From contig JANWIC010000014.1 of NCBI GenBank assembly GCA_025450075.1, positions 1-48,250 on the forward strand: a stretch of 48,250 bases of DNA, given 5' to 3'. The position numbers were made by a program, and so were the translations under genes. This DNA comes from Patescibacteria group bacterium (GTDB lineage: Bacteria; Patescibacteriota; Dojkabacteria; JAKAPS01). Position 1 is the first letter of the stretch. The number at the start of each line of letters is the position of its first letter. Of the stretch, positions 813 to 48,250 are shown piece by piece. Below the pieces are notes generated by a model. That model saw nothing but the letters and a program-made list of their open reading frames with translations. It was not told the DNA's origin and did no database searches.

Positions 813-2417
813 CTATTTCAGTAGCCATTCTGGAAATAAATCATCTGCATTAACGAGTCTTTCTTCAATTATATATTTTACTTCAATCTCCGGATTCTTT
901 CTAGAGCTTTCTAATTTTTGTCTTTCAATCTCTGCAAGTCGGATAGCAGGGATTAGTGGCTTATATACGGTTAGAACAGGAATATAATCAATTCCGCCTC
1001 TTTGATTTTGTACAGTTGCTTCTATGGTAAAGAGGAGAGAAAAACATTCCTCCGTAACTTTCTCTTCTGAATCAAGCGGTATCTTAGTTGTTGTTGTACA
1101 TTGAGTTAACCTAAGCCCAGGAAGAGTTAAGATTTGATGTTGTATTCCCTGATATTGATCAATAGCATCAGGACTTCTAAATTCATTTTGTAAACGTCTT
1201 TGTTCAGATAGCATTGCATTTATTATAGGAAATAGTCTTTCCTGCCCTACACCCCAAGGAACAGCATCAGACGATATATCCCATCCATCGTCCTTAGCAA
1301 AAACTTCATGTGGTAACCATTGTTGATTTCTGCAAAGAAGATCTTTTCTTCTTAAAACCTTTAGTGCATCAATAAAAAGATCTAATGTTAATATCTTATG
1401 ATTATATCGAATTTCTTCCATTACTTTAACAAATACACCAAAATTTCTTCTGACTTCTGGAATTGCATCTACAGAAATACAGTAAGCTTTATAAAGTGCA
1501 CTAATAATTTCTTCTTCTTCGTCAATAAATTCTTGTTCAGTACTATGTGATTTTCCTTTTATAATGTTAGAATGATCACTAAAATTTCTAAGTAATTGTA
1601 TATTATTTATACTAGAGCCGTCTCTACCGCTATCGAGTAGGGCATCAATTAATAAATCTCGTATAATTATACCCTTATTTCTTTTATCAGATGGCTTAAC
1701 TGTAGTGATATAATCACATCTAGTTTGTAATATAAGCCATTGAATTGCTATTTCTCTATCTGTGATGTTTAGCCGGCCATTTGAATATCTAGCAGGATAA
1801 TCAGCTGACCCACCATTATTTGCTAAATACATTTCATGGATAAATTGGCGAAATCTATCGGGTTTTTGCATGTCTTCAATCAGGTGGGCAAAGGCTGCTT
1901 TAGAAATTCTTAAATTGTGTAATTGAAGCTCATCCAATACACATATTAATACCTGGATTCCTTTTTGAGCTAACTCGGTATCATAAATTCTTTCAGAAAA
2001 ATCTAATTCTCTTTGTCTGCTAACATGATGCCCAACATTATTTTGTCTGGTTTTTCCTGAAGATATTAAAGGATTTGTGATTGCTCTTAGTAATTCAGAA
2101 TAGCGATTGGGTTTAGAGAATAATCTCACTGGTGATATATCACGAGGACGGTATGTAATTCTATTTGTTCCATCTGGAATATTAACCTTTGATTTTCCGT
2201 TTTTGATTAAAACCATTTCAGTTGCAAGTGAATGGAGTGCTTTAACCATTTTTCTTACATTTCCTTTTTTATAATCAATTCTAAGACCTTCAAGCTCTGG
2301 TGGATTATACTCGCTATTAGAGGGAAGTACTACCGAAATTAATGTTTCTTGTTCTAGAGGAGGCGTATTTATAGCAGATTCTTCTTGATCCTCTCTAATT
2401 AATGTATTTATTGCCAT
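813..2417 (-). CDS. Hypothetical protein, 534 aa
   Basis: I do not recognise this family. The protein is soluble-looking, with no signal peptide or membrane segment. It has a polar, Glu-rich N-terminus (MAINTLIREDQEES), a basic stretch around residues 50-100, and a C-terminal part rich in IE/EIE and Lys-Arg residues. It ends 5 bases from the mfd stop, tail to tail. A -10-like TATAAT lies on the minus strand at 2448-2453, about 30 nt before the ATG. Its base composition is visibly more AT-rich than mfd. It sits between mfd and the conserved dnaX cluster, so it may be an inserted accessory gene; that is inference. The single long uninterrupted frame makes it a real gene. Confidence 0.8.
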   Translation of the reverse strand: MAINTLIREDQEESAINTPPLEQETLISVVLPSNSEYNPPELEGLRIDYKKGNVRKMVKALHSLATEMVLIKNGKSKVNIPDGTNRITYRPRDISPVRLFSKPNRYSELLRAITNPLISSGKTRQNNVGHHVSRQRELDFSERIYDTELAQKGIQVLICVLDELQLHNLRISKAAFAHLIEDMQKPDRFRQFIHEMYLANNGGSADYPARYSNGRLNITDREIAIQWLILQTRCDYITTVKPSDKRNKGIIIRDLLIDALLDSGRDGSSINNIQLLRNFSDHSNIIKGKSHSTEQEFIDEEEEIISALYKAYCISVDAIPEVRRNFGVFVKVMEEIRYNHKILTLDLFIDALKVLRRKDLLCRNQQWLPHEVFAKDDGWDISSDAVPWGVGQERLFPIINAMLSEQRRLQNEFRSPDAIDQYQGIQHQILTLPGLRLTQCTTTTKIPLDSEEKVTEECFSLLFTIEATVQNQRGGIDYIPVLTVYKPLIPAIRLAEIERQKLESSRKNPEIEVKYIIEERLVNADDLFPEWLLK

Positions 2418-2447
2418 ATTTTGTATTTTATATAGTGTCGGGCAGAT

Positions 2448-2453
2448 ATTATA
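2448..2453 (-). promoter_or_regulatory. Candidate -10 box of the 534-aa gene
   Basis: Reading on the minus strand, TATAAT is followed by TCTGCC and about 30 nt later by the ATG at 2417. A similar TATAAT-CTGCC arrangement precedes the glycosyltransferase gene at 46487. No convincing -35 box is visible. Confidence 0.4.
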
Positions 2454-2525
2454 CTACGCTATGGGCTTTAAGGCAATACTATGAGTTTTCGATAGGCCCA
2501 TAGGGGAAAGGTGTATAATGGAGGT

Positions 2526-2645
2526 ATGTGGATCATATTGTTTGGCATATCTCAAGTAATTGAAGCCTTATTACTGGGTATACTTTTGTATGTATTTATG
2601 AAGAAGAAAAGAAAGAAAAAAGGGCGTGATAACAAGAAAGATTAA
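2526..2645 (+). CDS. Small single-span membrane protein, 39 aa
   Basis: A short frame starting MWIILFGISQV has one hydrophobic segment (about residues 2-24) followed by a very basic tail (MKKKRKKKGRDNKKD). This is the look of a small inner-membrane protein with the tail in the cytoplasm. A perfect TATAAT at 2514-2519 is 6 nt before the ATG, so the transcript would begin at or next to the start codon. The GGAGG at 2520-2524 is too close to the ATG to act as a ribosome binding site. The function is unknown. The gene is too short to be certain from sequence alone, but the promoter position and the protein pattern agree. Confidence 0.5.
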   Translation: MWIILFGISQVIEALLLGILLYVFMKKKRKKKGRDNKKD

Positions 2646-2704
2646 TATTCCACCTTCCAGTTATTTCATTATTCCCTCCCTTTGTAAAACAGGGCATTTG
2701 GATA

Positions 2705-2710
2705 TATAAT
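2705..2710 (+). promoter_or_regulatory. Candidate -10 box for the dnaX cluster
   Basis: TATAAT lies 24 nt before the dnaX ATG at 2735. It would give a leader of roughly 17 nt with no Shine-Dalgarno sequence. No clear -35 box is seen. Confidence 0.45.
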
Positions 2711-2734
2711 AATTTCATCTCAATTTTGTATCCC

Positions 2735-4297
2735 ATGGTGTTATACAGGAAATTCAGACCGACTACATTTGCTTCTGTTAAAGGCCAAACTGTTATCACT
2801 ACTGTATTAAAATCAGCAATAGTCCATAAAAAGATATCTCATGCATATTTGTTTACCGGAACTCGTGGGGTGGGGAAGACAAGCACTGCACGAATATTTG
2901 CTAAGGCCATAAACTGTTTAGAACCGAAGGATGGCGAACCATGTAATGCATGTGAAAGCTGCAAGTCATTTAATGATGGAAGCAATGTAGATTTAATGGA
3001 GATTGATGCTGCGTCTAATAGGGGTATTGATGATATTAGAGAGATAAAAGAGAAAGTAAACTTTGCGCCGACTATGTCTATATACAAAGTGTACATCATA
3101 GATGAGGTGCATATGCTTACTAAAGATGCTTTCAATGCATTGTTAAAAACACTTGAAGAACCTCCGGCAAAAGTAGTTTTCATTTTGGCTACAACAGAAA
3201 TATACAAAGTTCCTTTAACTATAATTTCACGATGTCAGCGGTTTGATTTTAAAAATGCTGAACAGGATGATTTGAAAAAACTATTAAAAGAGATTTGCAA
3301 AAAAGAAAAGATTGTCATAGATGATGAGAGTATACAACTCATAACAGAACTTGGAGAAGGGAGTTTCCGTGATTCTTTATCAATCCTTGAAAAACTATCA
3401 TCAGGAGATGAAGAAATTACTTATGATAATGCGCTTAAATCTCTTGGCATTCCAGATTTGCGTCTTCTTACAAATATCATTACTGCAATCGTTGCGGGGG
3501 ATATTGGAAAAGCATTTGTATCTCTTCGTGAGGCAATTGGCTCGGGTATAGATATCTATCAGATTAACAAGAATATGCTTTCCTATCTTGAAAAGCAGCT
3601 TGTTTTACAAGCGCAGCATGAATCAGGTGACTCGTTGTTATCTCTGCATGATACCCTCATGTTTATTAAAGAATTTTTGAAAGCAGAAGAGAGTTTGAAA
3701 TACAGCGTTGTTCCCTCTGTAGTTGTTGAAGCGGCAATTGCTTCACTTTGTACTCATTATGCAACACTGCATCCTGACATACAACCGGAGATTGTTGTAC
3801 AAAAAAAGCAAACAAAAAAAATTGTGAAGGAAGAGAAACTGGAAAAAATAGAGAAAGTGGAAGAAAAGAATAAAGAAGAAGAAATAGTTCCGGAAGCAGG
3901 TGGATCCGAAGTCCAGCTTGCAATGGATGATATAATGAAAGGGTGGGGAAAAGTGATTGCAAAGCTTATGCCATTCAATCACCATCTCAGTTCATTTCTT
4001 TCAAAATCTAAACCTGTCAGGATAGAAGATTCCTATCTCATTCTTGAGGTAAAGTATTCTTTCCATAAGGATAGGATTGAAGAAACAAAGAGTAGACAGG
4101 CAATAGCCGGTGTATTTGCGAATATATACGGGGTGAAACTGTTGCCCAAATGTATCGTGAATGCAAAACTTGTAGTCTCTGAAGGAATTGAAAAAAAACC
4201 ACAAATACAGGATAATATGAAAGAGGATATCAAACCTTCCAAAGAAGCTGACGCCGAAATTCTGAAGGAAGCATTGAAAATCTTCGAAATGGAATAA
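2735..4297 (+). CDS. dnaX: DNA polymerase III subunit gamma/tau
   Basis: DnaX is the ATPase of the clamp loader that places the sliding clamp on DNA. Visible elements are VLYRKFRP at the start, Walker A GTRGVGKTS at residues 42-50, the zinc-binding Cys cluster (CLEP..CNACESC) near 65-80, Walker B DEVHML, SRC at sensor 1, and a charged linker rich in Lys/Glu around 355-390 before the C-terminal domain. At 520 aa it is of tau length. I chose the ATG at 2735 because the longer frame begins at a TTG three codons earlier and MVLYRKFRP is the usual start. It leads the conserved dnaX-ybaB-recR cluster. The linker contains an A AAA AAG heptamer in frame, which could allow a short gamma form. Confidence 0.95.
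   Translation: MVLYRKFRPTTFASVKGQTVITTVLKSAIVHKKISHAYLFTGTRGVGKTSTARIFAKAINCLEPKDGEPCNACESCKSFNDGSNVDLMEIDAASNRGIDDIREIKEKVNFAPTMSIYKVYIIDEVHMLTKDAFNALLKTLEEPPAKVVFILATTEIYKVPLTIISRCQRFDFKNAEQDDLKKLLKEICKKEKIVIDDESIQLITELGEGSFRDSLSILEKLSSGDEEITYDNALKSLGIPDLRLLTNIITAIVAGDIGKAFVSLREAIGSGIDIYQINKNMLSYLEKQLVLQAQHESGDSLLSLHDTLMFIKEFLKAEESLKYSVVPSVVVEAAIASLCTHYATLHPDIQPEIVVQKKQTKKIVKEEKLEKIEKVEEKNKEEEIVPEAGGSEVQLAMDDIMKGWGKVIAKLMPFNHHLSSFLSKSKPVRIEDSYLILEVKYSFHKDRIEETKSRQAIAGVFANIYGVKLLPKCIVNAKLVVSEGIEKKPQIQDNMKEDIKPSKEADAEILKEALKIFEME
3802..3821 (+). other. Possible frameshift/slippage site inside dnaX
   Basis: In the linker, codons CAA AAA AAG contain the heptamer A AAA AAG in the correct phase (3802-3808), followed by a run of eight A (3814-3821). 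A -1 shift would read 21 further codons and stop at a TAA, giving a gamma-like protein without the C-terminal tau domain. E. coli dnaX uses the same heptamer, and Thermus dnaX uses a long A run. I see no clear Shine-Dalgarno-like stimulator before it. Confidence 0.35.
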
Positions 4298-5268: not shown

Positions 5269-6732
5269 ATGAAACTATACAATACCTTTGGAAGAAAACT
5301 TATTGATTTTACCCCGATACATGAGGGTGAAGTTCGTATGTATAATTGTGGACCTACTGTCTATGACTATCCGCATATCGGCAACTGGAGAACATTTACT
5401 CTTGCGGATATTCTCAAGCGAGTATTGCTGTTTCGAGGGTACAAAGTAATGCAGGTCATGAATATTACCGATGTAGGGCATCTGGTATCTGATGAGGATG
5501 AAGGTGAGGATAAATTAGAAAAAGGAGCAAAGAGAGAAAAAAAGACTGTATGGGAAGTTGCCCAATATTATATCGATGATTTTTTGGCATCACGGGAAAT
5601 ACTCCATATTTTACCTCCTGATGCCTTAACAAGAGCAACAGATAACATCCCTGAGCAGATAGCAATGATCGAGAAGATCATAACGAATGGGTATGCATAT
5701 GTCACAAAAGAAGCGGTATATTTTGATGTTGATGCTTATCAACGTGACTTCAAAGACTATACATCGTTATCTGGCCAAAAATTGGAAGATCAGAAGGTAG
5801 GTGTAAGGGATGGAGTTGTCGTCGATAAAGAAAAAAAACATCCATATGATTTCAGGCTCTGGCAATTAGATGATCCAGACCACCAAATGCTTTGGGATAG
5901 TCCATGGGGGAAAGGTTACCCCGGTTGGCATATCGAATGTAGTGCAATGTCCACTAAGTTTCTGGGACAGCCATTTGATATCCATACAGGCGGAGTGGAC
6001 CATATTCCTGTTCACCATTCAGATGAGATAGCACAAGCTCAAGCGGCGAATAGAACAAAATTTGTGAACGTTTGGATGCATGGAGAATTCCTGACAATTG
6101 AAGGAGGAAGAATGGGAAAGAGTTTAGGTAATTATTTCACGGTACAAGATATTGAGAAAATGGTTCAAGATAAATTAGGATACAGCACACCTAATGCGGC
6201 TTTAAGTTTACGATATTTGTATTTAACCAGTCATTACAGAAACAAACTGGATTTCTCACAGGATTCACTTATTGCCTCATTCTTTGCACTTTTTGATATA
6301 TATAAGGCGTTTGGAGATTTGTATCTTATGCATAAAGATGAACTTAATAACTATGATGTAGCAAATCATGTTGCTGATCCTGATCTTAAATCGGATTATC
6401 AGCAAAGACTCATTGATGCAAGTGATAATGATTTGGATACATCACGCATGATTGCAGATCTTAATCTCCTTATCGCTGATTCATCAATTCTAACTTTAGA
6501 AAAGGCAAAACAGATGCTTGAGTATGATAAAATATTAGGATTTGGGATGTTGGCAAATGCCCAAAACCACATTTTCAATTATACAAATGAACAGGAATTT
6601 ACTATGCAAGAGAGAAAAGCGGCTCGAGAGAACAGAGATTATGCAGCATCAGATACGATAAGGGAAAAATTAGAAAAAACAGGAATCGAAGTACTTGATC
6701 GAAAAGAACGTAGCATATATTATCGTCGATAA
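5269..6732 (+). CDS. cysS: Cysteine-tRNA ligase
   Basis: This class I synthetase charges tRNA-Cys. Cys27 (YNCGPTVYD) is a zinc ligand and HIGN at 36-39 is the HIGH motif. WHIECSAMS and GGVDHIPVHH carry the other zinc and substrate residues. The KMSKS loop reads RMGKSLGN, a mild variant of KMSKSLGN. Length is 487 aa, slightly long. I chose the ATG at 5269; a GTG three codons upstream overlaps recR and is less likely. The stop overlaps the start of cca by one base (TAATG), which suggests coupling. Confidence 0.95.
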   Translation: MKLYNTFGRKLIDFTPIHEGEVRMYNCGPTVYDYPHIGNWRTFTLADILKRVLLFRGYKVMQVMNITDVGHLVSDEDEGEDKLEKGAKREKKTVWEVAQYYIDDFLASREILHILPPDALTRATDNIPEQIAMIEKIITNGYAYVTKEAVYFDVDAYQRDFKDYTSLSGQKLEDQKVGVRDGVVVDKEKKHPYDFRLWQLDDPDHQMLWDSPWGKGYPGWHIECSAMSTKFLGQPFDIHTGGVDHIPVHHSDEIAQAQAANRTKFVNVWMHGEFLTIEGGRMGKSLGNYFTVQDIEKMVQDKLGYSTPNAALSLRYLYLTSHYRNKLDFSQDSLIASFFALFDIYKAFGDLYLMHKDELNNYDVANHVADPDLKSDYQQRLIDASDNDLDTSRMIADLNLLIADSSILTLEKAKQMLEYDKILGFGMLANAQNHIFNYTNEQEFTMQERKAARENRDYAASDTIREKLEKTGIEVLDRKERSIYYRR

Positions 6733-8135
6733 TGACATCAGATATATTACTTACACAGTTTTATTCTCTTGTACCTCAGCCGGTATTTGATATTGCACAT
6801 ATTCTGTACGAAAACGGGTATAGTGCCTATCTTGTTGGAGGATCAGTAAGAGACATTCTACTTGGAAAAATACCCCATGATTTTGATATTGCAACAGATG
6901 CTATACCTGAGAAACTATTGTTTTTGTTTCCACGATCTATTGAAGTAGGAGCAAAATTTGGGACGGTTATTGTTTTATCTTCACGACTTGGCTTAAGCGA
7001 TACTACTGAGCAAGAAGAAGAATACCAGGTGACGACATTTCGAAAAGACAGCCAATATGTAAATGGAAGATGGCCAGAACATGTTGATTTTTCTAAAACG
7101 ATTGATGAAGACCTGGCAAGAAGAGATTTTACCATTAATGCAATAGCAGTAAATCTTGTTCCTCTTCTTGATAAAAACAAAGAAGGAAACTTAGATGCAT
7201 ATATTGTTGATCCATATAAAGGAAGAGAGGATTTAGAAAAACAAGTTCTTAAAGCTGTCGGAGACCCAATTGAGCGAATGAAAGAAGATGGATTACGTGC
7301 ATTGCGGGCATGCCGGCTTGCCGCGAAATTGGAATTTCGAATTGAAGATGAAACATTTGATGCAATTCAAAAATCAGCAAGTATAACAGCTCAACTTTCT
7401 ATGGAACGTGTAAGAGATGAATTGATAAAAACGCTAGAAGCCTCATCCCCAAGTATTGGCCTCGACCTCATGAGAAGGGCTGGCCTACTTCACTTTTTCA
7501 TTCCTGAACTTCTTGAAGGAGTAGGTATGGAACAAAATGAATTTCACGAGCATGATGTATATACGCATCTTTTACGAACTTGTGATATTGCACCAGTAGA
7601 AATTCGTCTTGCAGCACTTTTGCATGATATCGGCAAATCAAGAACGAAAGATGGAGGACATTTTTATGGCCATGAAGAAGTTGGAGCATTGATGGTTGAA
7701 GAAATTCTGCAACGATTGAAGTTTCCAAATGCAATTATAGTACATATTACGAAACTTATCCGCCTACATATGTTCAATTATCTTCCAGACTGGAGTGATG
7801 CTGCAGTTAGACGTTTCCTGCAAAAAGTAGGGGATGAAAAAACATTGAAAGATCTTTTTTTACTTCGAATTGCAGATGCTGTTGCCAATCCAAAATCTGC
7901 TTATGATCCGCAAAACCTACGCGATCTTGAATTGCGAATTGCTAAAGTAGTTGAGGAAGATAATGCATTACATATAAAGGATTTGAAGGTTAACGGAGAT
8001 GATATTCGCAAAATGGGTGTTCCTACTGGTCCAAAGATAGGGGAGATTCTTGAATTACTTCTTGATAAAGTGATTGAAGACCCATCATTAAACAATCGTG
8101 ATTCTCTTTTGCAACTTGCGAAAAAGATGCTTTAA
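6732..8135 (+). CDS. cca: CCA tRNA nucleotidyltransferase / poly(A) polymerase family, with HD domain
   Basis: The N-terminal nucleotidyltransferase core has YLVGGSVRDILLG and the metal-binding DFDIAT. RRDFTINAIA and the RNA-binding region follow. An HD-type motif, LLHDIGK, lies near residues 298-304. Length is 467 aa. The enzyme adds the 3' CCA to tRNAs; this is needed here because the tRNA-Leu at 31110 has no encoded CCA. A poly(A) polymerase role cannot be excluded from sequence. The gene is last in the plus-strand run, and its TAA shares the palindrome TTAA with the stop of the convergent glycosyltransferase gene. Confidence 0.9.
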   Translation: MTSDILLTQFYSLVPQPVFDIAHILYENGYSAYLVGGSVRDILLGKIPHDFDIATDAIPEKLLFLFPRSIEVGAKFGTVIVLSSRLGLSDTTEQEEEYQVTTFRKDSQYVNGRWPEHVDFSKTIDEDLARRDFTINAIAVNLVPLLDKNKEGNLDAYIVDPYKGREDLEKQVLKAVGDPIERMKEDGLRALRACRLAAKLEFRIEDETFDAIQKSASITAQLSMERVRDELIKTLEASSPSIGLDLMRRAGLLHFFIPELLEGVGMEQNEFHEHDVYTHLLRTCDIAPVEIRLAALLHDIGKSRTKDGGHFYGHEEVGALMVEEILQRLKFPNAIIVHITKLIRLHMFNYLPDWSDAAVRRFLQKVGDEKTLKDLFLLRIADAVANPKSAYDPQNLRDLELRIAKVVEEDNALHIKDLKVNGDDIRKMGVPTGPKIGEILELLLDKVIEDPSLNNRDSLLQLAKKML

Positions 8136-9601
8136 TCCTGTGCTTTTTCCGTAACCACATATTGAATAGGTTTTCCGATTATGAGGCGAGTTTGTGCTTC
8201 AAGTGCAGGAATACCTGAGAAAAGAATACTGACAAACGGAAAACTTATCCATTGCAGCAAAGAAAATCCTCTTCTGAAATATGACCATTCAGCAGGCTTT
8301 TTAGGTGCAAACAGCGCTTCAATATAGAAGACGGAAAGCATCAATACGGTTGTTGCAGTAAGTATCTTACTAATAATTGCAGGAAGGGAATAGGAAAGAA
8401 TATTTCGGGAAAATGCCGGATTAAGAGCGGAAGGAAGAGAAAGACCAAAAAACAAAATAAATGGGGTGAGGGCCCATTCAAATGATTTCCTAATTTGTTG
8501 GGAAATATATAATACTTTAAGGGAGAACGGAATCTTTTTGTTCTTACTAATATTAGGAAGAGAGTAACTGATCTCAGAAGCACCCCATGCCCATCTGCGA
8601 ATCTGTACATATTGTTCTTTAAGGCTTCTGATATATCCTTTAGCCTTTACTGCATCAAGGGAAATTGGAATGTAGAGATGGACAATTTTAAGATCTTTTC
8701 CATAATACATAATTGTTTCCCAAAATATCCTTTCATCTTCTGGAATAATATCAGGTGACCAGTAATTAACTTTATGGAGCGTATCAAGACATAAAGCATA
8801 GATAGCAAAGTTTTGTGACCGGTGGGGTTTAAGTGCAATGCCAAGCTGCCATTGGATTGAAAATGTTGCAATCATTCTTGAGATAAAAGAAACCTGCCAA
8901 ATGTTGTTGAAAAACATCAGGAGCGGTTGGTAGATTCTCTTTTCTCTATCAGGCTCAGTAAGAAAACAATACGTTAATCGGGCCATATACTGAGCATGTT
9001 GTCTTCCATCAGAGTCACAAGAGGTTACTAATACATGCTTCGGATCAATCTCATGCTCCATTATATATTTATAAAGCTCCTGAGCAGCATAATTTTCGTT
9101 TGATGCTTTTCCGATAATTTCACCAGCCACGATTCGATGTCTTGTAATGATGATATCTAAAAAGTGTTCTTTGAATTCTTCTTTAAGTTGTTGCGCAATC
9201 TCATATCCCTTTTCCAGTCTTTCTTCCGTAGCAAGAAGCAATAGTTTTCTTTCTTTCGGATAATTACCATCTACAATGCATTGGATAGTAGGACGCAAAA
9301 CTTCAATACCTTCATTAGCATAAGGAATCATTATCGCTTGATAAATATCATGCCAATCTATGTCCTCATGCAATTTATCCAGCTCTTCTATCCAATTTGT
9401 ATCCATGACACGTTTCACTTTTCTGGATGAAATCATCATAAGGATAACAAGGCTGATTGCCTCGTATACGAAATATATGCAGTAAAAGACAACAATATAT
9501 GCTACAGCAATAGGGGCAATAAAAGACATCAGGATCATGATAAGGACAAATCCCCATGTAATCAGACCGGGAATCATTTCCACTAAACGCTTGTTAGTCA
9601 T
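8132..9601 (-). CDS. Membrane-bound family 2-type glycosyltransferase
   Basis: The protein, 489 aa, has two hydrophobic segments at residues 13-55, a cytoplasmic glycosyltransferase domain, and several membrane spans after residue 370. Catalytic signatures are visible: SCDSDGRQH (DxD), EDERIFW (the acidic ED pair) and QIRRW, matching the QxxRW of processive GT2 enzymes. The acceptor and sugar are unknown; a role in cell-envelope polysaccharide is inferred. It is convergent with cca (4-base overlap) and divergent from the beta-CASP gene. Confidence 0.75.
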   Translation of the reverse strand: MTNKRLVEMIPGLITWGFVLIMILMSFIAPIAVAYIVVFYCIYFVYEAISLVILMMISSRKVKRVMDTNWIEELDKLHEDIDWHDIYQAIMIPYANEGIEVLRPTIQCIVDGNYPKERKLLLLATEERLEKGYEIAQQLKEEFKEHFLDIIITRHRIVAGEIIGKASNENYAAQELYKYIMEHEIDPKHVLVTSCDSDGRQHAQYMARLTYCFLTEPDREKRIYQPLLMFFNNIWQVSFISRMIATFSIQWQLGIALKPHRSQNFAIYALCLDTLHKVNYWSPDIIPEDERIFWETIMYYGKDLKIVHLYIPISLDAVKAKGYIRSLKEQYVQIRRWAWGASEISYSLPNISKNKKIPFSLKVLYISQQIRKSFEWALTPFILFFGLSLPSALNPAFSRNILSYSLPAIISKILTATTVLMLSVFYIEALFAPKKPAEWSYFRRGFSLLQWISFPFVSILFSGIPALEAQTRLIIGKPIQYVVTEKAQD

Positions 9602-28555: not shown

Positions 28556-30391
28556 ATGGCAGAACGTATTCCACCACAAAATCTTGATGCAGAGAAGTCT
28601 GTATTAGGTGCAATTTTGTTGGATAAAAATGCAGTTATTGAAGTTGCACAGTTTCTTAAACCCGAATTTTTTTATAGCCCAATACATGGCTTTATCTTTG
28701 AATCTGTTCTTGATTTGTTTTCCAAAGGAGAACCGATCGATATCCTTACTATCTCAAATAATTTAAAGAAAAAGAAAAGACTTGAAAAAATTGGTGGTGC
28801 AGTTTATTTAACTGAACTTGCCGAATCTGTCCCGACATCTTCCAATGCAGAATATTATGGCCTTATTGTAAAACAAGCATATGTCCGTCGATCACTCATC
28901 AGTGTTTCTGGAGAAATTAATGAATTAGGGTTTAATGAAAATCTTGAAATTGAAGAAATCATCGATGAAGCTGAAAAGAGACTTTTTCAAGTTGCAAATG
29001 ACGGAAAGACAGCAGATTTTGTTCATATTAAAGACTTGTTAAAAGAAGCGTATGAACGTGCTGAAGAGCTAGAGAAGAAAAAAGATCAATGGAGAGGAAT
29101 TCCTACAGGATTTCTAGAAATAGATAAAATTTTAGGTGGATTACAAGAATCTAACCTTATCATTATTGCTGCCCGTCCATCTGTTGGAAAAAGCTCCTTT
29201 GCACTTGATATTGCAAGACATGCAACACTGAAAGAAAACAAAGCAGTAGGAATATTCTCACTTGAAATGTCAAATCTTGAATTAACCGATAGGCTTATTG
29301 CATCACAGGTTGGAATGAATCTTTGGGATTACCGTATGGGACATATAAAAGAAGAACAAATGGAAATTTTAGGAGATGTCATGGGCCAACTATCTGAAAT
29401 TGATTTATACTTGGACGATACTCCCGGACAAACAATTATGGAGATCAGAACAAAGGCAAGAAGGCTTAGCATGGAAAAAAAGCTTGATTTAATCATTGTA
29501 GATTATCTTCAGCTAATTGCATCAGGAAGAAATATTGATAATCGTGTGCAGGAAGTAGGAGAGATATCAAAGGCATTAAAAAATCTAGCAAGAGAATTAC
29601 GAATTCCGGTTGTCGCACTTTCACAGCTTTCTCGAGCAGTTGAAACAAGAACATCAAAAACTCCGCAATTATCAGATCTTCGGGAATCTGGTTGCCTGAG
29701 AGGAGATACCATTATCCAGGATATAAAAACAAAGCAAAACTACTCGATAGCCTCTCTTGTTGGAAAAGCAGAACCAATTACAGTTTATGCAATGAATGAA
29801 CAAAAGCAGATTGTTCCAGCAGAAATGGAGAAAGTGTTTTCAAGCGGGATTAAAGATATATACCGTCTCACAACGGTTAAAGGAAGAGTAATTGATGCAT
29901 CTGCAAATCATCCGTTCTTTAAGAAAATCCATGGATGGACTAAATTAGAAAAATTGGAAAAAGGTGATAAGATTGCCGTCCTTTGCAATAAGGGGGAAGG
30001 AGTATATCAAGCCAAAGTTACTCGCTTTAAGCAGTCTGGTGAATCCGATAATTCCATTGCATATAATACAACAATACAAAATGAAATGTGGGAAGTTGGT
30101 TGGGATGAAATTGTATCGATCGAATATGTTTCAACAGAAGAAGTATTTGATGCAACTGTCCCTGCACACCATAATTTCGTTGCCAATACTATTATTGTCC
30201 ATAATAGTATTGAACAGGATGCGGATGTTGTCTTGTTTTTAAGCCGTCCAGAAAAAGATGACCCTGAAGCTGCAGGAAAGACTGTCGAAACAGCTGATAT
30301 AACAGTAGCAAAACACAGAAACGGACCGACCGGAAGCGCAAAGTTAGCTTTTGTTCGTGCTCAAGCAAAATTTGCAGATATTGCCTCCTAA
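28556..30391 (+). CDS. dnaB: Replicative DNA helicase DnaB, interrupted by a mini-intein
   Basis: DnaB is the ring helicase at the replication fork. The N-terminal domain starts IPPQNLDAEKSVLGAILLD. The RecA-like core has Walker A ARPSVGKSS (about 206-214), Walker B LIIVDYLQLI and the DnaB-specific LSDLRESG. Translation then runs into an intein (residues 380-550) and returns at SIEQDADVVLFLSRPEKDD. The exteins total 440 aa, normal for DnaB, and splice in frame. The precursor is 611 aa. The final part of the helicase (KHRNGPTG, the arginine finger region) is intact. Confidence 0.96.
   Translation: MAERIPPQNLDAEKSVLGAILLDKNAVIEVAQFLKPEFFYSPIHGFIFESVLDLFSKGEPIDILTISNNLKKKKRLEKIGGAVYLTELAESVPTSSNAEYYGLIVKQAYVRRSLISVSGEINELGFNENLEIEEIIDEAEKRLFQVANDGKTADFVHIKDLLKEAYERAEELEKKKDQWRGIPTGFLEIDKILGGLQESNLIIIAARPSVGKSSFALDIARHATLKENKAVGIFSLEMSNLELTDRLIASQVGMNLWDYRMGHIKEEQMEILGDVMGQLSEIDLYLDDTPGQTIMEIRTKARRLSMEKKLDLIIVDYLQLIASGRNIDNRVQEVGEISKALKNLARELRIPVVALSQLSRAVETRTSKTPQLSDLRESGCLRGDTIIQDIKTKQNYSIASLVGKAEPITVYAMNEQKQIVPAEMEKVFSSGIKDIYRLTTVKGRVIDASANHPFFKKIHGWTKLEKLEKGDKIAVLCNKGEGVYQAKVTRFKQSGESDNSIAYNTTIQNEMWEVGWDEIVSIEYVSTEEVFDATVPAHHNFVANTIIVHNSIEQDADVVLFLSRPEKDDPEAAGKTVETADITVAKHRNGPTGSAKLAFVRAQAKFADIAS
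29693..30205 (+). mobile_element. Mini-intein in DnaB (DnaB-b site)
   Basis: The intein has 171 residues, Cys1 to Asn, with Ser as the first C-extein residue. Block A is CLRGDTII, block B is DASANHPFF with the conserved His, block F is EVFDATVPAHHNFVAN and block G is IIVHN. No LAGLIDADG endonuclease domain fits in the length, so it is a mini-intein that can splice but not home. The insertion point, between LRESG and SIEQDAD, is the same as in the Synechocystis DnaB intein. The surrounding DNA shows no other sign of mobility. Confidence 0.95.
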
Positions 30392-44236: not shown

Positions 44237-44599
44237 TTAAAATGACTGAAAGCAAACAGGCGGAATATAGCTGAATATATAAGCAAACACATTAAATATT
44301 AAATTTTTACACCAATCCTGAACTTTACTTAATCCTTTTGGAAATGGTTTATCTTTAAGGAAGTTATTTCTTCTCACCTGCCATTTTTGCATTGTTTCAG
44401 AATTAGGTTTAGTTATATGGTAAGGAGGATAATTTCTTATAATATAAGCCCATTGAACTATCTACCATTCTTCATCAAGAGTAAAGCCTGTTATACCTAA
44501 AAACGGGATCGCAAATGACGATAAGAAATATTTTAGCCTTCTCAATTCTTTTACTACTTTATCTTCGTAGAGTTTGTATAACTTGCAAATACTGCAAAC
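44237..44599 (-). pseudogene. Decayed reading frame with one in-frame TAG
   Basis: On the minus strand a frame that overlaps the end of the sortase gene reads ...IPFLGITGFTLDEEW, a TAG at 44462-44464, then IVQWAYIIRNYPPYHITKPN and on to a TAA at 44237-44239 (74 further codons). The frame is protein-like (Trp, aromatic and basic residues in blocks) but has no ATG, so it is more likely a remnant than a working gene. It also fills the gap of 355 bases between the sortase and the 78-aa gene, where nothing else was seen apart from the promoter copy. Confidence 0.3.
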
Positions 44600-45177
44600 C
44601 TATTCTGGCTGAACCATCCATCACAAGTAAAGAGTGTAAGCATTGGCTTTGTTGTAGGAGCCATAATCTGGATATCCGTTGGGGGAACTACTTGTGTCTT
44701 TTGTACGGTATATGTGAATTGGTATGAAGCCGTATAAAGGGTAATAACATCACCGGATTTTAAAAGATGGATATTATGAAATACAGTATCCAAATCATGT
44801 CCGAATATAACAGTATTACCTGAAATTGGATTTGGCATAGAAGTGCCATAAGCAAAGTTGGCAAGTGTTGGAGATATTGGCCATGAGCCATTTGTTGCCT
44901 CTTTGGATTCAGTGACAAGCAGATCAATTTGGCTATTTGGAATTACGATATGTATCGGTTCTGATAGCGAAATTTGTAAATGATCCGCCTCTGTCTTTAG
45001 AGCCTTATTAAACTGTTGTACCTTGCTATTTGATGCAAGAACAGTAGTAGATGTAGTCCTTTGAGATGCGATTGCATCGAGGAATGAGGGAACGTTGAAC
45101 CATGAATAAACATGGTAAGCTACTACTGTTCCGGCAATTATAAATGCAATTGATGCAATTAGTTTTTCTTTGACCAT
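44554..45177 (-). CDS. Sortase (class D/E-like transpeptidase)
   Basis: Sortases cut proteins at LPxT-type signals and attach them to the cell surface. The 207-aa protein has an N-terminal membrane anchor (about 5-25), then the sortase barrel with His127 in VIFGHDLD, Cys185 in LTLFTCDGW and Arg193 in SQNRFAVFA, the complete catalytic triad. Class is uncertain; TLFTC resembles class D/E. Its start overlaps the end of the 75-aa gene upstream by 19 bases, and that gene ends in a sorting signal. A GT2 gene precedes both. Confidence 0.9.
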   Translation of the reverse strand: MVKEKLIASIAFIIAGTVVAYHVYSWFNVPSFLDAIASQRTTSTTVLASNSKVQQFNKALKTEADHLQISLSEPIHIVIPNSQIDLLVTESKEATNGSWPISPTLANFAYGTSMPNPISGNTVIFGHDLDTVFHNIHLLKSGDVITLYTASYQFTYTVQKTQVVPPTDIQIMAPTTKPMLTLFTCDGWFSQNRFAVFASYTNSTKIK

Positions 45178-45386
45178 TTCTTTGAAGCTTTTTCAAAGAT
45201 AAAATAAGCAGCAGTCCAAACAACAAATGCACTTAAAACTGCAAGTGCCAGTGTTGTTACACTGATTGTGCCTATAAATGGCAATCGGCTTGTTTGTGGC
45301 AGTGTGCCTGTTGAAGCTCCGAGAACAACGCCGGTAACGGATGCTCCTAATACTTTACCCGTTGGGGTAGCTATTGGATTGTACAT
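45159..45386 (-). CDS. Minimal sortase substrate with LPQTS sorting signal, 75 aa
   Basis: LPQTS is at residues 29-33, followed by a hydrophobic span (about 40-64, ISVTTLALAVLSAFVVW...) and a basic tail (EKASKKWSKKN): the three parts of a sorting signal. The N-terminal 28 residues (MYNPIATPTGKVLGASVTGV...) are short and repeat VLGAS twice (12-16, 21-25), with no classical signal peptide. If cut after Thr32, only a 32-residue peptide would be anchored. The N-terminus could reach the outside by N-out insertion of the span. It starts 21 nt after the GT2 gene and overlaps the sortase. Alternative: leftover 3' end of a larger surface gene. Confidence 0.7.
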   Translation of the reverse strand: MYNPIATPTGKVLGASVTGVVLGASTGTLPQTSRLPFIGTISVTTLALAVLSAFVVWTAAYFIFEKASKKWSKKN

Positions 45387-45407
45387 AATTGTGTACGATA
45401 AAATAAA

Positions 45408-46487
45408 TTACGATGATTGAATTGCATATCTAGAATTTTCCCAGCTCGTTCTTTTTAATGGAAACTTACGTAATACCAAAACTTCAAATCCGGATTTAAG
45501 GAATATAAAAACATTCAATAATCTCAAAAAATAGATTAAGGGAAATATTGCAATTATTTCCGGCCTTTTTTTTGAAATACTTGTATAACTACAAAGGATG
45601 ACCATAGTTACAATATCTGCAAGAAACAAATATGAAAGTACATTCGCATTTCTCTTTATAACGCTTAGAGAGATTAGAGCTGCTAGTTCTGCTGTAAAAA
45701 TCAAGCTATCGAGTGTGAAGTATAAAATTAATAAATCGGTTTTTTTAGGTGGAAATGATAATCGCTTTTTAGCAACTTGATACCATCCTCTATACCATCT
45801 GTTAATCTGTTTTAAATATACTTTCAAGTTTAAGGGTTCTTGTGTCCATACAATCATTTTTGGTTCATATACAATCTTTCCTTTGAATTTTTCATGCATT
45901 TCAAGTGTCATATCATAATCTTCAACCAGCGTGTTATTCTTAAATCCTGTTTCATCTATCATAGCCAGATATTTTGTATTAAAGCATGATGCACATCCCG
46001 GAAGAATCAATACAAGATTTAGATATCCCTCTACCCGTTTATACAGATCTTGTCCGAATCCGTATTCAAATGCACGATAATGGGAGATCCATCTTGCTTT
46101 CATTGTTTTTACTTGTCCTGCAATTGCCATTAGGTCTTTATGCTTCCTATTCTTTTTGATTGATATTCGTAATTGTTTCTTGAAATCTGGGTTAAAGATT
46201 GTATCTGCATCGGTAATTGTTACCCAGGTGTAGTTCTCGAAAAGATGAAATTCTTTCATACCTCGTTTTAAAGCTTCTCCCTTCCCTATCCCCTCATCAT
46301 TTGTCAAAACATTGCTTTTTAAGTAATTCGTTGCAATTTCAGCCGTTTTATCATTAGAGCCGTCATTCACGACATAGACATCTCTATATGAAAAACCAGC
46401 TTTCTTAGCGGACTTTATGGTATGTTCAATAACAAGCTCTTCATTGTGGGCGGGAATGAGGAGTGCAATAAGATGTTTTCGCATCAT
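45408..46487 (-). CDS. Membrane glycosyltransferase, GT2 family (processive type)
   Basis: The 359-aa protein starts LIALLIPAHNEELVIEHTIKS and has DGSNDKT, TDADT (DxD), EDYDMTLEMHEK and QINRW (QxxRW), as in PgaC/BcsA-like enzymes, followed by three or four membrane spans (about 250-340). It should polymerise or extend an envelope sugar. Sugar and acceptor unknown. It leads the run GT2, LPQTS peptide, sortase, with 21 nt to the peptide gene. A TATAAT-CTGCC promoter lies upstream of its start. Confidence 0.82.
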   Translation of the reverse strand: MMRKHLIALLIPAHNEELVIEHTIKSAKKAGFSYRDVYVVNDGSNDKTAEIATNYLKSNVLTNDEGIGKGEALKRGMKEFHLFENYTWVTITDADTIFNPDFKKQLRISIKKNRKHKDLMAIAGQVKTMKARWISHYRAFEYGFGQDLYKRVEGYLNLVLILPGCASCFNTKYLAMIDETGFKNNTLVEDYDMTLEMHEKFKGKIVYEPKMIVWTQEPLNLKVYLKQINRWYRGWYQVAKKRLSFPPKKTDLLILYFTLDSLIFTAELAALISLSVIKRNANVLSYLFLADIVTMVILCSYTSISKKRPEIIAIFPLIYFLRLLNVFIFLKSGFEVLVLRKFPLKRTSWENSRYAIQSS

Positions 46488-46580: not shown

Positions 46581-47363
46581 TTAGTGTGGTGAGTTGTCTT
46601 TTATCTTATAAAAACGTATTAAAAATGCAATTTTAAAAAATTCAAAAATATCTCTTATATAATATTTATTTGCTCCAACTTTACTTTTACCAAACTTACG
46701 TTCATTAAATGTTATGGGGTATTCAATTCCTTTTGCGCCTGCTTTAAGAACGGTAGATAGTAATGATAATTGAAATGAGTATCCGATTGCATGAATGTCT
46801 TTAATTCTTTTATCAAGAAGATTTTTTACACGTATCACTCTATATCCTGAGGTACAATCTTTAATGTCATAGATACCAGCAATATATCGTGCAAGAAAAT
46901 TTGCTGCTTTACTGTTAAATACACGAAATCTTCCCCACTCTTCTGGATAGGAACCTCCTTTGATATATCTTGACCCAATAACAAGATCGTATCCTTGTTC
47001 GATTTTTTTTAACATAGAAGGAAGAATGGATGGATTATGTTGTAAATCTGCATCCATCATGACAATAATATCTGCGTGCAGTTTTTTTGTTGCATATATC
47101 ATGCCTCGTTTATATGCCTCACCTAATCCTTGCTTCTTTCCATGGATAAGATAGATATGATCATATTTCTTTTGTTTTTCTTTCACAACACGAGCTGTTC
47201 CATCGGGAGAATTATCATCTACAATAAGCTGCAATAGAGTGTAAGGCTGAAGCTTCCCTTTAAGCCTTGCAATCTTATCGATAAGAATAGAGATGTTTTC
47301 TCTTTCATTATATGTAGGATTGATGATAACAATTTTCTTTGGAAATTTATCTATGTCCTTCAT
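46581..47363 (-). CDS. Polyprenol-phosphate mannose synthase-like glycosyltransferase
   Basis: This GT2 enzyme (260 aa from the ATG at 47363) has the DPM1 layout: INPTYNERENI, LLIVDDNSPDGT-type DDNSPDGTA, MMDADLQHNP, VIGSRYIKGGSYPEEWG, CTSGYRVI and ITFNERKFGKSKVG. Such enzymes charge a polyprenyl phosphate with mannose or another hexose for later transfer outside the membrane. There is no C-terminal GtrA-like membrane domain. A TTG four codons earlier (47375) is an alternative start. It overlaps the end of the following (upstream) hypothetical gene by 17 nt. Confidence 0.85.
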   Translation of the reverse strand: MKDIDKFPKKIVIINPTYNERENISILIDKIARLKGKLQPYTLLQLIVDDNSPDGTARVVKEKQKKYDHIYLIHGKKQGLGEAYKRGMIYATKKLHADIIVMMDADLQHNPSILPSMLKKIEQGYDLVIGSRYIKGGSYPEEWGRFRVFNSKAANFLARYIAGIYDIKDCTSGYRVIRVKNLLDKRIKDIHAIGYSFQLSLLSTVLKAGAKGIEYPITFNERKFGKSKVGANKYYIRDIFEFFKIAFLIRFYKIKDNSPH

Positions 47364-48250
47364 TATTTGGATCAATTTTCATTTTAAAGTTAGTTACAAC
47401 GATTGCAAGAGTACTAAGCTTATCAGCAAGTATACCTATTTCATCTTCATTCAAATTATATAGTGAAATTTTTATCAATATGGATTGTAAAAATTGATAA
47501 TAGATCGGATTATGTTGCTCAAGTGCATCCAATCCATCACTTATAAGTTGCTCATCTTCCGTTTTAAAATTCTTCAAATTTCGGTATATCATACTAGGGT
47601 CAAATTGCTCACCGGTATTTATTACTTGAGCATATCTCATATCTGCAAGGATAAGAATTGCAATTAAATCCTGTGAATATTGCTCAAGTATAGCTTTAAA
47701 AATGGTTCTATGTTGAGGATCAATGTTATCTTCATTATAAGCAAAAAGAAATCTTTGAAATGGCCCATGATGTTTAGGATTTATACGCAGTACTTCTATT
47801 GCTTTCCTATTTGCCACTTCATAACCTTCTTTTTTTTCTATATATTCTTCTAAAATATCTATACCTACTATCGGGGTGCCGATTGTTGAATACAGTATTG
47901 TTTGTTCATTCAACCTAGTCTGGCGGTACAATGCGTAGAAAAATATTCCTATGATAGTATTAAGAGCTGTTTGTGCATTTTCATTAAAAAATTCCATTTT
48001 GTTTGCAATACGCATTGCTAATAGAGGGTTGTATTTTTGAAGTTGCAATAGCCCATTATTCGCTAGTAGGGTAATTATGTATTCTCCCTCATCGTTCGTT
48101 CGTGATAAAGCTTGTTCAATTATATGTTTAATCTCAGGGGGGATAGCCGGAAGTCCAGGTACTGCCATACCATCATTTATAGTGGTTTGGCCATCAAGAA
48201 TTCTTTGCCTGTCCAGGCTATATGCAGTTGCAACCAAAATTCCATAAAGA
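47347..48250 (-). CDS. Hypothetical protein, at least 296 aa (5' end may lie outside the window)
   Basis: Unknown family. The sequence is helical and soluble (IKHIIEQALSRTNDEGEYIITLLANNGLLQLQ; NEQTILYSTIGTPIVGIDILEEYIEKKEGYEVANRKAIEV). The frame stays open to the window edge, and the only inside start is a TTG at 48237 with no ATG nearby, so the true start may be beyond 48250. It overlaps the DPM1-like gene at its 3' end and is likely in the same operon. It has no motif I can name. Confidence 0.65.
   Translation of the reverse strand, partial: LYGILVATAYSLDRQRILDGQTTINDGMAVPGLPAIPPEIKHIIEQALSRTNDEGEYIITLLANNGLLQLQKYNPLLAMRIANKMEFFNENAQTALNTIIGIFFYALYRQTRLNEQTILYSTIGTPIVGIDILEEYIEKKEGYEVANRKAIEVLRINPKHHGPFQRFLFAYNEDNIDPQHRTIFKAILEQYSQDLIAILILADMRYAQVINTGEQFDPSMIYRNLKNFKTEDEQLISDGLDALEQHNPIYYQFLQSILIKISLYNLNEDEIGILADKLSTLAIVVTNFKMKIDPNNEGHR

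Follow-up and report, generated by a model that had tools for sequence, protein, structure and literature searches.

A microprotein family resembling bare sorting signals, encoded beside GT2 glycosyltransferase and sortase genes in CPR bacteria

Results

Three genes in one run on a Patescibacteria contig

The stretch of DNA analysed here (the window, 48,250 nucleotides) spans a complete contig from a 1.11 Mb genome that encodes four sortases, that of a Patescibacteria group bacterium. It carries three minus-strand genes, for a GT2 glycosyltransferase, a 75-residue microprotein and a sortase, and we find that their coordinates and lengths, as well as the 21-nt gap between the first two and the 19-nt overlap between the last two, all match those given in an earlier note made from the sequence (Table 1). 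A second GT2 gene is possibly in one transcription unit with the three, and it did not recur as a neighbour in the other loci viewed.

The full microprotein reads MYNPIATPTGKVLGASVTGVVLGASTGT-LPQTS-RLPFIGTISVTTLALAVLSAFVVWTAAYFIF-EKASKKWSKKN. The C-terminal LPxT motif, hydrophobic segment and basic tail that characterise LPXTG-anchored proteins are all present, and the N-terminal Sec signal peptide of such proteins is absent. The earlier note had already claimed that there is no signal peptide, and the reading frame bears this out: the TAA that ends the GT2 gene is in frame with the 75-aa ORF, eight codons before its ATG, with no other start between, so that a longer N-terminus is impossible without stop readthrough. 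Cleavage after the Thr of LPQTS (residues 29-33) would release a 32-residue peptide, which fits the product proposed in that note. No clear Shine-Dalgarno sequence precedes the ORF, and its translation may rely on coupling to the GT2 gene. The microprotein matches no curated family above its cut-off, including the sorting-signal models TIGR01167 and PF00746.

Elsewhere in the window we observe a DnaB helicase gene (28556-30391, plus strand) with an intein splicing domain (PF14890, 68 bits) within the C-terminal domain of the helicase, and two large minus-strand ORFs of 534 aa (813-2417) and 489 aa (8132-9601) with no Pfam match at E 0.001.

Table 1. Features of the locus, with positions in the window
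Feature	Position	Strand	Basis
GT2 glycosyltransferase, PgaC/IcaA-like, 359 aa	45408..46487	-	PF13641 E 4e-21; TIGR03937; motifs
Microprotein, 75 aa: N-terminal peptide, sorting signal, putative transmembrane segment, basic tail	45159..45386	-	sequence; profile of relatives
N-terminal peptide MYNPIATPTGKVLGASVTGVVLGASTGT, 28 residues, Tyr at position 2, one Lys, no acidic residues	45303..45386	-	sequence; family pattern
Tyr codon of the N-terminal peptide	45381-45383	-	
Sortase motif LPQTS, residues 29-33	45288..45302	-	sequence; L, P and T near-invariant in 25 relatives
Hydrophobic segment TISVTTLALAVLSAFVVWTAAYFIF, limits approximate	45195..45269	-	sequence; VWxxxY-type pattern common to small proteins paired with the same GT2 type
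Basic tail EKASKKWSKKN	45162..45194	-	sequence
Sortase, partner type, 207 aa, N-terminal membrane anchor	44554..45177	-	PF04203 73.4 bits; tree; fold
Catalytic His127 codon of the sortase	44797..44799	-	invariant in partner-sortase alignment
Catalytic Cys185 codon of the sortase	44623..44625	-	invariant in partner-sortase alignment
Catalytic Arg193 codon of the sortase	44599..44601	-	invariant in partner-sortase alignment
Second GT2, polyprenyl-phosphate sugar transferase-like	46581..47375	-	PF00535 E 1.9e-26

The sortase and its relatives

The window sortase is a PF04203 enzyme (cut-off 26.6 bits) with one N-terminal helix. It also passes the general sortase model TIGR01076 (41.1 against a cut-off of 39.35) and passes none of the models for sortase classes C, D, E and F (best 30-52 bits against cut-offs of 140-166). 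The three residues previously named as catalytic are invariant across an alignment with eight partner sortases, and the predicted model has the sortase fold (Foldseek matches 5hu4, E 6.5e-11, 5cuw, 4d70 and others, probability 1.00).

Its best matches come from other classes of the phylum (E down to 3e-31), and in several of them a small LPxT ORF directly adjoins the sortase. The proposal that the sortase has a conserved small partner holds in part: a tiny partner lies beside sortase and GT2 genes in many CPR genomes, but none adjoins several of the closest sortases (L046, L049, L050, L051 and L053), and within the class of the window genome, where sortases are frequent (65 of 86 genomes), none was found at any further sortase locus that we inspected. 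When 39 related genomes were searched with the 75-aa protein alone, no convincing match was found outside its own genome, and a scan of the named genomes with the sortase as a single protein gave no match; because profiles later succeeded, we regard these two failures as limits of short or single queries.

In a tree of 77 sortases, most of the Saccharibacteria partner sortases fall in one group (28 entries, two of them not labelled as partners; support 100/98), and the window sortase belongs to another, together with partner sortases from other CPR families (8 entries, three not labelled as partners; 96/92). The partner label corresponds to five changes on this tree, which therefore does not demonstrate a single origin. 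The other three sortases of the window genome cluster with sortases of their own class, apart from the window sortase. The same genome encodes at least one ordinary long LPNTA protein (L192, 348 aa), other LPxT proteins having been sought there with TIGR01167 only.

Extent and coding status of the microprotein family

We collected 50 distinct small proteins of 36-75 aa from Saccharibacteria and several other CPR lineages, a large family for which we found no earlier description. Their neighbours are a GT2 and a sortase gene in 32 cases, a GT2 gene only in 14, a sortase gene only in 2 and neither in 2, so that 48 of the 50 adjoin at least one of the two, the others lying at contig ends; these counts are lower bounds, as many loci span only 1.5 kb on each side, and they are biased towards such neighbours because some of the 50 were retrieved through searches for the GT2 or the sortase. 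The 29 loci retrieved by a search with the small-protein profile are free of this bias; all are standalone ORFs, and 27 have a GT2 and/or sortase neighbour, with the two exceptions at contig ends.

A GT2 profile search of the named genomes returned 43 loci, many of them from Candidatus Saccharibacteria. The small protein is found near the GT2 gene in 16 of 19 Saccharibacterial loci (the 19 include L154, titled only 'bacterium', and L157 was counted after inspection), as well as in BroJett034, in a Berkelbacterium and in a bacterium that carries no lineage name, and it is absent from all Acidobacterial and other control loci of this search. Using a strict small-protein pattern, we observe a match within 2.5 kb of the GT2 gene in 18 of 27 CPR loci, compared with none in 180 kb of outer flanks of the same loci and none near GT2 in 16 loci classed as non-CPR controls, indicating that the arrangement exceeds chance. 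The search with only the small-protein profile, which supplied the 29 loci above, covered 295 genomes from the class to which G214 belongs and gave matches at E <= 1e-4 in 40 genomes and 38 of 129 genera; some of the weaker matches are ends of long proteins.

The coding status of the family was examined in relatives, no close relative of the window ORF having been found. The pair L154 and L160 differs at 20 nucleotides over 52 codons with a single residue changed (dN 0.009, dS 0.655), and the other pairs with computable dS give dN/dS of about 0.12 to 0.36. A Shine-Dalgarno sequence stands at the expected distance before most starts of family members, and these relatives begin at the position where the window ORF begins. 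A chance ORF is ruled out by the selection seen in relatives together with the background counts. Long CPR surface proteins have a similar VLGA...LPxTG terminus, and the earlier note had considered that homologues might prove to be the 3' ends of longer genes; for the family this objection fails, given the standalone starts with their Shine-Dalgarno sequences. The VLGAS segment to which it had drawn attention recurs as a VLGA-like segment in many members.

Anatomy of the small proteins

Family members share a near-uncharged N-terminal peptide, an LPxTG-like motif, one predicted transmembrane segment and a basic tail, with no signal peptide. The L, P and T of the motif are near-invariant among the 25 members aligned, and some members carry LPKAG, LPVAG or LPVMG, in which the usual Thr is missing and the membrane segment is retained. 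At lenient E-values, TIGR01167 matches 13 and PF00746 9 of the 25. The N-terminal peptide of the 50 members is 3-33 residues long (median 19), is rich in Gly, Ala, Val and Thr, and has on average 0.46 basic and 0.28 acidic residues; by the positive-inside rule, a neutral N-terminus and a basic tail would fit an N-out, C-in topology. Pilin-like polymerisation through Lys was set aside, as Lys makes up 1.8% of the residues of this peptide. Apart from a Tyr, which 40 of the 50 members have at one of positions 2-4, the peptide is variable. This count favours Tyr in that any start giving Tyr was scored where there were several candidate Met; 33 members have a single candidate Met that already shows Tyr. 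One may speculate that this Tyr serves glycan attachment or insertion.

In L156-L158, conservation is much stronger in the membrane segment and tail than in the N-terminal peptide. Of 27 small proteins paired with the window GT2 type, 10 show a membrane pattern containing W, against 0 of 19 paired with the other type (Fisher p 0.003, for a pattern picked after viewing the sequences and with relatedness ignored).

Forms of only 36-38 aa occur in three lineages (MYQLPSTGPS..., MYTLPKAGPS... and MYTLPVAGPS...). They directly adjoin a GT2 gene in L129 (2543-2659, minus strand), L132 (1390-1500, plus strand) and L134 (2462-2578, minus strand), follow the scheme MYxLPx[TA]GPS...IH plus a membrane segment, and have just three residues ahead of the motif, with Ala replacing Thr in two of them (LPKAG, LPVAG). 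In L171, a 46-aa ORF (7320-7460, plus strand; MALAGPQIGGVSLIIHVLVVIFFKV...) begins right behind the GT2 gene and looks like a further diverged GPS..IH microprotein.

Glycosyltransferase and deacetylase partners

The window GT2 has C-terminal hydrophobic segments and the D, DAD, ED and QxxRW motifs of processive synthases, which are invariant in the GT2 alignment. The window-type GT2s share the D, DxD, QxxRW pattern, which suggests that these enzymes would be processive. The score of the window GT2 against TIGR03937 (PgaC_IcaA) is 79.6 bits, under the cut-off of 422.3, and that against TIGR03111 (XrtG-associated GT2) is 44 bits, far under the cut-off of 364. Two GT2 types are found in the clusters, the window type and one only weakly similar to it. 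In wider stretches, we observe a recurring cluster of GT2, small LPxT protein and sortase, often with a PF01522 polysaccharide deacetylase, in variable gene order. The deacetylase is present in the clusters of L075, L080, L083 and L086, with a CBM_4_9 carbohydrate-binding signal in three of the four. The window genome encodes a single polysaccharide deacetylase, and since this sole copy lies on another contig, the deacetylase was rejected as part of the window operon.

Additional observations concern gene structure. L074 encodes a 434-aa sortase (6030-7334, minus strand) whose first ~120 residues are GT2-like (E 1e-8) without the acidic catalytic motifs, possibly a decayed GT2 fused to a sortase; Pfam detects the sortase domain only. 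A GT2-sortase fusion in L078 is unsupported (GT2 similarity E 0.017). In L104, the GT2 gene (1747-3027, plus strand) beside a 71-aa LPITG protein is broken into one ORF of 251 aa and another of 173 aa, reflecting a frameshift or an assembly error.

Discussion

The locus can be compared with several known systems. Gram-positive sortase loci with a dedicated LPXTG substrate share with it the sortase fold, the His-Cys-Arg triad, the LPxT motif with membrane segment and basic tail, and gene adjacency, whereas the CPR substrate, at 36-75 aa, lacks both a signal peptide and a folded domain and is associated with a polysaccharide synthase. Conceptually nearest is the exosortase/PEP-CTERM system, in which a C-terminal sorting signal is combined with a processing enzyme encoded near exopolysaccharide genes, and polysaccharide deacetylase is among the correlated families (PMC1569441). 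However, EpsH/exosortase has at least eight membrane helices and is non-homologous to the PF04203 sortase of the window, and PEP-CTERM proteins generally have signal peptides (PMC1569441). The XrtG-associated GT2 family, judged from its name, likewise places a GT2 next to a sorting transpeptidase, but the window GT2 scores far below its cut-off and the window enzyme is a true sortase rather than an exosortase.

In Ica/Pga systems, the poly-N-acetylglucosamine synthase IcaA/PgaC works with a small membrane subunit, IcaD/PgaD, and a deacetylase. As in these systems, a processive-type GT2 is clustered in several relatives with a small membrane protein and with a deacetylase, which in the window genome lies on another contig. 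In contrast, the CPR small protein would have one membrane segment plus a sorting signal, a sortase is present, and the GT2 is below the PgaC/IcaA cut-off; no IcaD/PgaD family was among the Pfam/NCBIfam matches of 25 small-protein members. In the literature, which our search covered in part, we found no publication describing a GT2/microprotein/sortase module, a sortase with an LPXTG microprotein, or a sortase linked with aminosugars and transpeptidation, a weak negative in each case. Sortases are described in more than half of CPR genomes (family fam000526), and the passage on this family mentions no small substrate or polysaccharide module (PMC6744442).

We favour, at a probability of about one half, a reading in which GT2, small protein and sortase form the core of a CPR surface-polysaccharide module and the small protein is its membrane microprotein, processed by the sortase. 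The GT2 would make and extrude a polymer, on which an exported deacetylase, sometimes with a carbohydrate-binding domain, would act in many lineages. The small protein would be a minimal sortase substrate. Its near-uncharged N-terminus, having no signal peptide, would probably cross the membrane through YidC-type insertion, and its basic tail would remain inside so that LPxT faces outward. The partner sortase would then cut after the Thr and join the N-terminal peptide of 7-37 residues to an amine outside. Regarding the acceptor and the job of the peptide, we hypothesise that the peptide covalently links the envelope to the polymer or to the synthase of that polymer, as an adaptor. In favour of the reading are the association of the genes, the coding status of relatives, the conserved motif, the matches of relatives to sorting-signal models, the deacetylase in several clusters, the grouping of the window sortase with partner sortases and the low charge of the N-terminal peptides, whereas topology, processivity and cleavage are deduced from sequence. 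Against it stand the lack of an adjacent deacetylase in the window, the motifs without Thr and the missing adjacent sortase in some members, those sortases of the window's own tree group that have no small neighbour, and a window ORF with neither a clear Shine-Dalgarno sequence nor a close relative in which selection could be gauged. In a more specific and rather doubtful version, the sortase would build a peptide-polysaccharide conjugate, either by joining the peptide to free amines of the polymer exposed by the deacetylase, or by fixing to the envelope a glycopeptide whose polymer sits on the conserved N-terminal Tyr; we know of no precedent for either linkage.

The strongest rival, unlikely on balance but to be taken seriously, is that the small protein serves the GT2 as a transmembrane subunit, in a role like that of IcaD/PgaD, the LPxTG-like stretch being a sortase docking site or a remnant. 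Retention with GT2 and no adjacent sortase in 14 of 50 members, the persistence of the membrane segment in the LPKAG, LPVAG and LPVMG members, the conservation of segment and tail over the peptide in L156-L158 and the restriction of the W pattern to one GT2 type all point this way. However, a plain GT2 subunit needs neither a near-invariant L, P and T across 25 members nor a sortase nearby in 34 of 50, and the W pattern was chosen post hoc and tested blind to relatedness. Alternatively, the sortase may attach an ordinary peptide to peptidoglycan as a hydrophobic or adhesive coat, the link to polysaccharide genes being merely regulatory. The sorting signal does resemble that of long CPR surface proteins, and sortases are known to attach their substrates to lipid II, yet synthase adjacency is retained across two GT2 types and shifting gene orders, and the released peptide would have just 7 residues in some members, which makes this improbable. 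We give still less credence to a role as regulator or pseudo-substrate, in which the small protein would keep the sortase occupied until a different substrate or the polymer arrives; the tight sortase pairing and the 19-nt gene overlap in the window would suit it, but not the members with a GT2 and without an adjacent sortase. Finally, the frame continuing from the GT2 stop codon in the window and the terminus common to long proteins could suggest that the small gene is an artefact, either an ORF arisen by chance or a 3' fragment of a gene for a large surface protein. This is already contradicted for the family by purifying selection and conserved Shine-Dalgarno starts in relatives, by 50 members in the same context and by the empty 180 kb of CPR flanks, and we consider it scarcely tenable.

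Three findings go beyond the earlier note: a deacetylase often joins the cluster as a fourth component, the N-terminal peptide carries a Tyr, and there are forms of 36-38 aa. Little is known of how the surface is built and anchored in CPR bacteria, many of which are thought to live on other microbes, and genes of this size are readily overlooked in annotation. The microprotein is nearly a bare sorting signal, and provides a short, easily synthesised substrate for learning what CPR sortases do. Overall, the retention of a microprotein family with a polysaccharide synthase in Saccharibacteria and other CPR points to a surface-glycan system that these lineages have in common, and the presence of such a tiny substrate beside polysaccharide and sortase genes suggests an undescribed coupling of a peptide to surface-sugar assembly.
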